NCBI RefSeq assembly: GCF_004681185.1
Contig: NZ_SRIF01000002.1
Location: 372,001-436,000, forward strand
DNA: 64,000 nt
Source: Haloarcula amylovorans
GTDB taxonomy: Archaea > Halobacteriota > Halobacteria > Halobacteriales > Haloarculaceae
Direction of reading: 5' to 3'
Notes under the pieces: model-generated
Databases searched by the model: none
Seen by the model: only the letters and a program-made list of their open reading frames with translations
What the model was told of the DNA's origin: nothing
Position numbers and translations under genes: made by a program
In this document: in pieces, positions 46,792 to 49,538 of the stretch
Layout: each line of letters opens with the position of its first letter
Position numbering within the stretch: the first letter of the stretch is position 1

Positions 46792-48414
46792 ATGGAGACG
46801 ACACGCGGATTCGAATCGATAGCTGGCCATTACAGCAGGCGCATTGGCGCGGCGCTCGCGGTAACGTTGGTCGGGACGCTCGCTTTCGGGGCGCTCTTCG
46901 CCGTCCACGCGGCGGACACGGGGGCAGGGTTGTCAGCGATCGCCGGCACGCTGTTCGTCGTCGTGCTCAACCTCGGCTTGCTCGGTATCGTCCTTGGGGG
47001 CAACGCGGCCGTTGCGCTCCGACGACTGACCGGTGCCGCGGAAGCCATCGAGGACGGCGACCTCGAAGCCAGCCCCGACGTGGACAGAGCCGACGAGTTC
47101 GGTCGCCTCGCCGCGGCGTTCGACAACATGAGCAACTCGCTCGGGACGGCACTCGACGAGTCCGAGACGGCACGGAGAGAGGCCGAGGACGCTCGCGAAG
47201 ACGCAGAGGAATCCCAACGAGACGCAGAAGCGGCCCGTCGCGAAGCAGAAGCGTTCAACGAGACGCTCATCGAACACGCGACGGACATCGGCGATGCGAT
47301 GGACGCGGCCGCCGACGGCGACTTCACGCGCCGACTGGAGACCGACGCGGACGTCGACGCTATCGAGCGAATCGCGGTTGCCTACGAGGAGATGGCTGGC
47401 GACCTCTCGACGACGGTCGACGAGATTCGGGGGTTCGCCACCGTCGTCGAGGACGCGAGCGGGTCCGTCGCCGACGACGCGGCCGACGTCGAACGACTCA
47501 ACGAGTCGCTGGCGAGCGATATCCGCGAGTTGGCACGCGATATCGAAGGACAGGCGAACCAACTCCAGACTGCCGTCGCGGAGACGAACGACCTCTCGGC
47601 GACGATCGAGGAGGTCGCCTCGACGACGGACGAGGTCGCCCGACAGGCCGGACGGGCCTCGGACGTCGGCACGACCGGCGCGGAACGCGTCACCGACGCC
47701 ATCGAGTCCATCGAGGGCGTCGAGACCGCTATCGCCGACTTGGACGCGCTCGTCGCGGAACTGAACGACCGGATGCGGGACGTGGAGTCGACGACCGGCA
47801 TCATCGACGACATCGCCGAACAGACCAACATCCTCGCGCTCAACGCGAACATCGAGGCCTCGCACGCCAGCGAGGGCGGCGAGGGGTTCGCCGTCGTCGC
47901 CGACGAGGTCAAGAGCCTCGCCGAAGAGACCCAGACCGCCATCGACGAAATCGAGGGCATCGTCGCCGGCGCTCGGTCGGACGTCGACGAAGTAACCCAG
48001 GAGATGGACGACACCAGAGCGCGCATCGACGACAGCGTCGAGACGGTCACCGACGCGGGCGACACGCTGGCACAGCTCACCGACACCGTCGACGACGTCG
48101 ACGAGGCGATGGGCGAGATCGCTCGGGCGACCGACGACGGTGCGGCCGCCACCGAAGAAGTGGCCGCGACCATCGACACTGTCGGTGACGCCGCCGCCGA
48201 CGTGGCCGAGCGCTCGCACACACTGGCCGACACCGCCGAGGAGACCGCGGAGACGATGAGCGACGTGCGCGGTCGGGCCGACGACCTCTCTGCCCGCACC
48301 GCGGAACTCATCGACCGCTTGTCGGCCTTCGAGACGCGCGACCAGCACCACGGCGCGACTGCCGACCCGACACCGACCGCTGGGCGACAGACGATGGGTG
48401 GTGACGATGATTAG
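46792..48414 (+). CDS. HtrII-like methyl-accepting transducer
   Basis: The 540-residue protein has two TM helices (about 18-40 and 48-70) with only a few residues outside the membrane, as in sensory-rhodopsin transducers and unlike ligand-binding chemoreceptors. TM2 ends Val-Leu-Asn60-Leu-Gly-Leu, which lines up with the Asn74 region of Natronomonas HtrII. A HAMP domain follows (about 70-122), then a coiled coil (120-160), a second HAMP-like segment (160-215) and the signalling helices. The hairpin tip is at 340-382 ([14 protein letters not shown]). It should form a dimer that controls CheA/CheW. Its stop overlaps the opsin-like gene by 8 bases. Confidence 0.93.
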
Positions 48415-49129
48415 CAACGCGGGGATCTACGGCGTCGCCGCGGCCGCCTCGGCCGTGGCGTTCCTCGTCTTTCTGGGCTGGCTCAGCCGCGTTCCAGCGT
48501 CTCGCCGGCGGTACTGCTACCCGGTGGTCGCCGTCGTCGGCTTCTCGGCCGCGATGAGCGCGCTGACTTCGATGGGCGTCGCGCCCGTCGCCGGGACCCA
48601 ACTCACCGTCCCGAACATCCTCGATGACTTCGTTGCGTACACGGTGTTGTGGACCGTCGCGGTGGCGCTGGCCAACGAATCTCGACGGATGCTCGCCGTC
48701 GCCGCCGTCGTTCCGGCGGTCCAAGTCCTCGCGTTCAACGTCGCAGCTATCGTCGGCGGCGTCGTCGGTCTCGTCGGTCTCACCGTCGTCGTCCTCGGAC
48801 ACGGTCTGATAGCGTACCTGCTTCTCGGGCCAATATGGCGTCGTGCGGTCGCCGTCCCCGACAGACAGCGACTCCTCCACTGGAAGTCCCGGAACCTCCT
48901 GTTGTTCCTCATCGGGATGCTCATCGTCTACGCGCTGCTCTCGGTCGCGGCGGTGTTTGACTCGTTCGTCGTCACCGTCCTCAGAGTGTACATCGGCCTG
49001 CTCATCAGGGTCGGCTTCGCCGGATTCCTCTTTGCCAACGTCGGCGCTATCGCGGTCGACCGAACTGAGCTAGCAGGACCCGCTCCGCTGTCGGCCTCGG
49101 ACGAGGCCAGTACGAGCGGGGGCGACTGA
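48407..49129 (+). CDS. Sensory-rhodopsin-II-like seven-helix protein lacking retinal lysine
   Basis: The start is the ATG at 48407, inside the transducer's end; two GTGs upstream (48398, 48401) are alternatives. The 240-residue protein has seven TM helices and aligns throughout with Natronomonas SRII: Arg-Arg-Tyr in the A-B loop, Tyr-Leu-Leu-Leu-Gly-Pro at the end of helix E, Arg-Asn-Leu in helix F, and Val-Tyr195-Ile-Gly-Leu-Leu-Ile-Arg201-Val-Gly-Phe in helix G. Arg201 (AGG, 49007-49009) occupies the Schiff-base lysine position. Asp73 matches counterion Asp75, but Arg72 is Asn70, Asp201 is Gly197, Trp171/Tyr174/Pro175 are Ile169/Leu172/Ile173 and Thr204 is Ile200. It cannot hold retinal covalently. 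It probably acts through the overlapping transducer. Confidence 0.85.
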
Positions 49130-49226: not shown

Positions 49227-49538
49227 ATGAGCCGAGCTTTCACCAAGGGTGACGGAGAGGGTGTACGTAGTGGGCCCGTCAGCGAGCAGTTCGACTGGGC
49301 GGAGACCGCACCGAGTATGGCGGTCGTAGAGGTAATCGCTGCCGCGGCCGGCACGGAACCGACGGTTGGAACGCCGATCTACGAATCGGTCGAAGCGGGG
49401 GCTATCGACGCCCTGTTCAGGGCCGGAAACGACTCTTCGGACCGACAGTTTTCGTTCACCCACGAAGGTATCGCCGTGACGGTCAAGGGCGACGGCACCG
49501 TGCTGGCGCGGCCCACGCTCGAAACGGCGTCCCGGTGA
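49227..49538 (+). CDS. HalOD1 output-domain protein
   Basis: The 103-residue protein has the HalOD1 layout in a divergent form: Met-Ala-Val-Val-Glu-Val-Ile-Ala-Ala-Ala-Ala-Gly-Thr, Tyr-Glu-Ser-Val-Glu-Ala-Gly-Ala-Ile-Asp-Ala-Leu-Phe, and Ile-Ala-Val-Thr-Val-Lys-Gly-Asp-Gly-Thr-Val. Here Asp-Pro-Asp-Ala-Leu-Asp-Arg is replaced by Glu-Ala-Gly-Ala-Ile-Asp-Ala. It is transcribed in the same direction as the transducer-opsin pair, 97 bases away. An AT-rich CCTTATAC at 49187-49194, about 36 bases before the start, suggests its own promoter. Role unknown. Confidence 0.8.
   Translation: MSRAFTKGDGEGVRSGPVSEQFDWAETAPSMAVVEVIAAAAGTEPTVGTPIYESVEAGAIDALFRAGNDSSDRQFSFTHEGIAVTVKGDGTVLARPTLETASR

Follow-up and report, generated by a model that had tools for sequence, protein, structure and literature searches.

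A group A opsin-related protein paired with an HtrII-like transducer in Haloarcula amylovorans: a probable retinal-free receptor subunit

The window analysed here, a 64,000-nucleotide stretch of Haloarcula amylovorans DNA (contig NZ_SRIF01000002.1, positions 372,001 to 436,000), encodes an opsin-related protein (ORP) resembling sensory rhodopsin II (SRII) together with a transducer (Table 1). This ORP is probably a retinal-free receptor that serves as membrane input subunit in a taxis receptor encoded by two genes and drives its transducer through the SRII-HtrII interface. A sequence-only reading of the locus had already suggested a rhodopsin fold converted to a non-light, or non-covalent-ligand, receptor. 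A non-retinal receptor is still the best reading, and it matches the hypothesis of Becker et al. 2016 (PMC4915679). The non-light part thus has a published proposal behind it, and the non-covalent ligand is something we continue to infer.

By its residue pattern and its Haloarcula amylolytica orthologue, the protein is a group A ORP of Becker et al. 2016, who described 48 haloarchaeal ORPs, with arginine in group A and a hydrophobic residue in group B, reported that most group A ORPs adjoin a HAMP/MCP transducer gene, demonstrated ORP transcription and proposed that ORPs sense non-light stimuli (PMC4915679). The class is therefore not new, as both the Lys-to-Arg change and the transducer linkage were published in 2016. 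No title or abstract reporting an ORP stimulus was found in the later open-access literature. What is added here is modest: conservation of the transducer contact on both sides, a host without a known route to retinal, the co-occurrence of the arginine with an acidic residue, and a further non-lysine clade.

Table 1. The transducer and ORP genes and their residues discussed in the text (positions in the window)
Feature	Position	Strand	Basis
htr, HtrII-like transducer, 540 aa	46792..48414	+	Pfam HAMP 7.7e-15, MCPsignal 2.7e-35
htr Asn60 = HtrII Asn74, which in SRII-HtrII is hydrogen-bonded to the contact tyrosine	46969..46971	+	Alignment to 2f95_B
orp, group A ORP with seven helices, 240 aa	48407..49129	+	ORF list, SRII alignment, model
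orp Asp73-Asp74 = SRII Asp75-Trp76; one or both proposed to pair with Arg201 in the interior	48623..48628	+	Group A counts
orp Tyr78 = SRII Thr80, invariant in group A	48638..48640	+	57/57 sequences
orp Lys160 = SRII Arg162, cytoplasmic end of helix F; the protein's only lysine	48884..48886	+	
orp Tyr195 = SRII Tyr199, transducer-contact tyrosine	48989..48991	+	Residue counts
orp codon AGG, Arg201 = SRII Lys205 / BR Lys216	49007..49009	+	Alignment

The ORP is predicted to have the SRII fold. It shares 49 of 206 aligned residues with SRII (24%), which was the sole match of a phmmer search against the PDB (E 7.6e-5). A profile of the ORP family matched lysine-bearing SRII relatives with E-values of 1e-14 or better and other lysine opsins with E-values of about 1e-4 to 1e-12. 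The AlphaFold model, based on 79 sequences, has seven helices (pLDDT 90.2, pTM 0.84), and its top Foldseek matches were SRII and SRII-HtrII structures; the best SRII matches had a Z of about 28 and an rmsd of 1.6-2.0 Å at 21% identity, and over the SRII chains Z was 27-28 and the rmsd 1.6-2.3 Å. Homology to SRII is thus secure despite the weak one-sequence searches, because it is supported by the family profile matches and by the predicted fold (Z 28). A Pfam match to Cytochrom_B_C (E 0.0011, below the cut-off) was taken as a chance similarity of hydrophobic helices.

When the protein was aligned to SRII (2ksy), Arg201 fell on Lys205, which bears out the replacement of the Schiff-base lysine claimed from the sequence alone. 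A 116-sequence alignment places Arg201 there as well. A relocated Schiff base is ruled out, since the only lysine, Lys160, lies where helix F ends on the cytoplasmic side. The other changes first listed (Arg72 to Asn70, Asp201 to Gly197, Trp171 to Ile169, Tyr174 to Leu172, Pro175 to Ile173 and Thr204 to Ile200), along with the retention of SRII Asp75 as Asp73, hold in the same alignment, and it extends the list with W76 to D74, T80 to Y78, G112 to F110 and W178 to A176. At the position of Gln106, glutamine is also the commoner residue in group A (33/57). Thr204 and Tyr174 constitute the signal relay of SRII (PMC3274258); both are lost in the ORP, and therefore its trigger must differ from that of SRII.

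Two sources supplied the relatives, a contig collection with one genome per species and 392 genomes of the order, and the group A set comprises 57 distinct sequences, the nearest orthologues being Haloarcula loci L001-L003. In a tree of 85 sequences, all non-lysine opsins were split from all lysine-bearing opsins with support of 100/100. Group A formed a clade with the same support (100/100) that extends across many genera, and group B, in which Leu or Phe replaces the lysine, formed a separate one. The Haloarcula amylovorans protein thus combines an SRII-like seven-helix fold, the Lys-to-Arg change, a place in a monophyletic non-lysine clade and an adjacent HAMP/MCP gene. Two marks of SRII itself are missing, namely the helix G lysine and a match to PF01036 (Bac_rhodopsin), for which a Pfam search of the protein returned nothing above the cut-off. 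Six residues are invariant in group A (Y78, K160, R162, N163, L164 and Y195 in the numbering of this ORP), and Tyr78 is also invariant in alignment A3. The one group A sequence without arginine, L111 (G310:C5), is a paralogue of L095 (G310:C3); it has serine at this site and no acid at SRII positions 75, 76 or 201, both charges having been lost together. The tree also contains a third non-lysine clade (support 96/84, n=7) made up of L097, L103, L107 (Arg), L112, L113 (His), L114 (Val) and L130 (Thr). Its members keep much of the rhodopsin pocket, with Arg72, Tyr174 and Asp201 in 7/7 and Asp75 in 5/7, and several of the transducers encoded beside them have a different N-terminal region.

Haloarchaeal orthologues with arginine beside an htr gene, a search suggested by the sequence-only reading, proved to be the rule: 56 of the 57 group A sequences have the arginine, and an HtrII-like transducer gene lies directly upstream in 54 of the 57 loci, usually overlapping. 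The exceptions are L006 (contig end), L074 (short flank) and L094, for which no transducer was present within the 3 kb fetched; L094 and L073 are two divergent group A ORPs of the same genome, G343, in which the retinal synthase Brp/Blh was not detected. In the window, the start of orp overlaps the last codons of htr by 8 bases. The flanks of the pair (uvrC, aminotransferase, ligA) are conserved in Haloarcula, and in distant genera only htr and orp stay together. No hint of a ligand was found among the neighbouring genes in Haloarcula or in more distant genera. A gene for a 103-aa protein (49227-49538, + strand) lies directly downstream of orp, as it does in L001, and in L002 and L003 a homologue precedes htr; it is probably a movable neighbour unrelated to the ORP.

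As judged from its sequence, the transducer has HtrII-type features, that is, two N-terminal transmembrane helices joined by a very short outer loop, HAMP and MCP signalling domains and an asparagine in TM2, and its complex with the ORP is predicted. Residues 23-143 matched the SRII transducer in the PDB (2f95_B, E 1.3e-17); the alignment pairs Asn60 with HtrII Asn74, given a numbering offset for this chain that we take to be three residues. In SRII-HtrII, Tyr199 bonds Asn74, and the contact matters for binding (PMC3274258). The receptor tyrosine is present in 57/57 group A, 14/14 group B and 7/7 third-clade sequences, and the transducer site is Asn in 40 and His in 13 of the 53 aligned group A transducers. 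HtrII and Asn74 are not mentioned in the main text of Becker et al. 2016 (PMC4915679). Conservation is lower at a second contact of SRII-HtrII, that of Thr189 with Glu43/Ser62, where the receptor residue is mostly Asp and the transducer has Ser in only 14. That the first contact is the best-kept feature of the ORP, with Tyr195 invariant and the partner site kept in the transducer, would also be expected of a structural or regulatory subunit that has no sensing of its own and stabilises or biases the transducer, the stimulus entering elsewhere. We consider such a role unlikely. The polar interior residues Arg201, Tyr78 and, in most cases, Asp74 are kept as well, and a pure scaffold would not need them; moreover, with hardly any outer domain on the transducer, the opsin is the obvious input.

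Searches of the host genome (G000) retrieved neither a canonical rhodopsin (PF01036) nor a Brp/Blh retinal synthase; 22 of 24 congeners match PF01036, and Brp/Blh is present in the same 22. The host does encode an RPE65-type carotenoid oxygenase (L139, G000:C1:110271-111635, E 2.7e-106). A lycopene-cyclase-domain match was judged not to be a full CrtY, as it is a 100-aa single-domain protein. Among the 49 genomes that encode a group A ORP, drawn from the 392 of the order, Brp/Blh was found in 41, so ORP hosts can usually draw on retinal and its absence is no requirement for an ORP. It was not detected in the other eight (G000, G354, G209, G121, G157, G127, G343 and G281), all of which except G000 also lack the RPE65-type oxygenase; in seven genomes the pair thus persists with no sign of either known retinal-forming enzyme. 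Of the eight, only G354 contains a lysine-bearing rhodopsin gene, which is halorhodopsin-like (L140, G354:C14); this organism would have to obtain retinal from elsewhere, or the draft assembly misses a Brp/Blh gene.

The oxygenase of the host and the capacity of most group A hosts to make retinal are what one would cite for a light receptor with non-covalently bound retinal or apocarotenoid. This is nevertheless a poor candidate, and we regard it as very improbable. The pocket aromatics W76, W171, Y174 and W178 are replaced in this protein, and G112 has become Phe or Tyr in 55 of 57 group A sequences; the seven genomes that lack both enzymes speak against it too, and two other ORPs formed no visible pigment with retinal (PMC4915679). 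Decay of a rhodopsin gene might be read from the loss of the lysine and the pocket in a host without canonical rhodopsins, but we reject a pseudogene, which is barely credible given an intact frame under purifying selection (dN/dS ~0.38 against L001), arginine conserved in 56/57 sequences and a clade that spans many genera and is fully separated from lysine opsins. A sequencing error, conceivable in that the AGG codon of Arg201 is one base from AAG (Lys), can be dismissed with near certainty, because all near relatives have arginine, CGN codons, two changes away from lysine, are used in 53 of the 56 Arg cases, and the pocket has otherwise been lost too.

Under the preferred reading of a retinal-free receptor, the ORP, a descendant of sensory opsins, would form an SRII-HtrII-like complex with its transducer. 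A stimulus other than retinal photochemistry would shift helices F and G, and the movement would pass via the Tyr195-Asn60 contact to transducer TM2, HAMP and the signalling domain, and from there to CheA and the archaellum. With less confidence, we suppose that the buried Arg201 would pair with Asp74 or Asp73, as a fixed stand-in for the pair formed by the Schiff base and Asp75, and that this pair would loosen when the acid is protonated or an anionic ligand binds. Asp occupies SRII position 76 in 48 of 57 group A sequences, and an acid is present at position 75, 76 or 201 in 55 of the 56 Arg-bearing ones, a co-occurrence that does not count as independent evidence many times over because the sequences are related; the exception, L072, keeps the arginine with no acid at any of the three. 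The pattern suggests that a buried Arg-carboxylate pair replaces the Schiff base-Asp75 pair. We tentatively propose, as a possibility that may well prove wrong, that group A ORPs are chemoreceptors or pH/anion sensors built on the opsin fold, in which a permanent buried Arg-carboxylate switch stands in for the photochemical Schiff base-Asp switch and the SRII-HtrII output contact is unchanged.

If this is true, the same transducer interface accepts light or chemical input, a microbial parallel to the diversification of GPCRs. Microbial opsins would then extend beyond light proteins to a seven-helix receptor-transducer interface for chemical or other stimuli, as in GPCRs. Haloarcula amylovorans offers a clean test case, with one ORP-transducer pair and with archaellin and CheA genes present. 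Since the host has no detectable canonical rhodopsin or known retinal synthase, a phenotype of the pair could not be confused with phototaxis due to other rhodopsins.

Compared with the published group A ORPs, the protein differs in nothing essential. Both have arginine in place of K216, Asp for W76, Leu for Y174, Ala for W178 and a shortened F-G loop, both retain Tyr199 and Asp189, and both show the HAMP/MCP neighbour and the kinship with sensory opsins; the Haloarcula amylovorans protein has Gln106 where the paper reports Met108. The tree of Becker et al. includes a sequence labelled Ham (amylolytica), and the close orthologue L002 (68% identity) comes from Haloarcula amylolytica. Group B ORPs are likewise lysine-free and SRII-like, keep Tyr199 and in many cases lie beside a transducer gene; they differ in having Leu or Phe instead of the lysine, in retaining Arg72 and Tyr51 and in having Gly in place of Asp75. 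With SRII-HtrII of Natronomonas pharaonis the system shares the fold, the gene pair, the Tyr199-Asn74 contact and the HAMP/MCP output, whereas the ORP, at 24% identity, is without the Schiff-base lysine, the retinal pocket and the Thr204-Tyr174 relay of that receptor.
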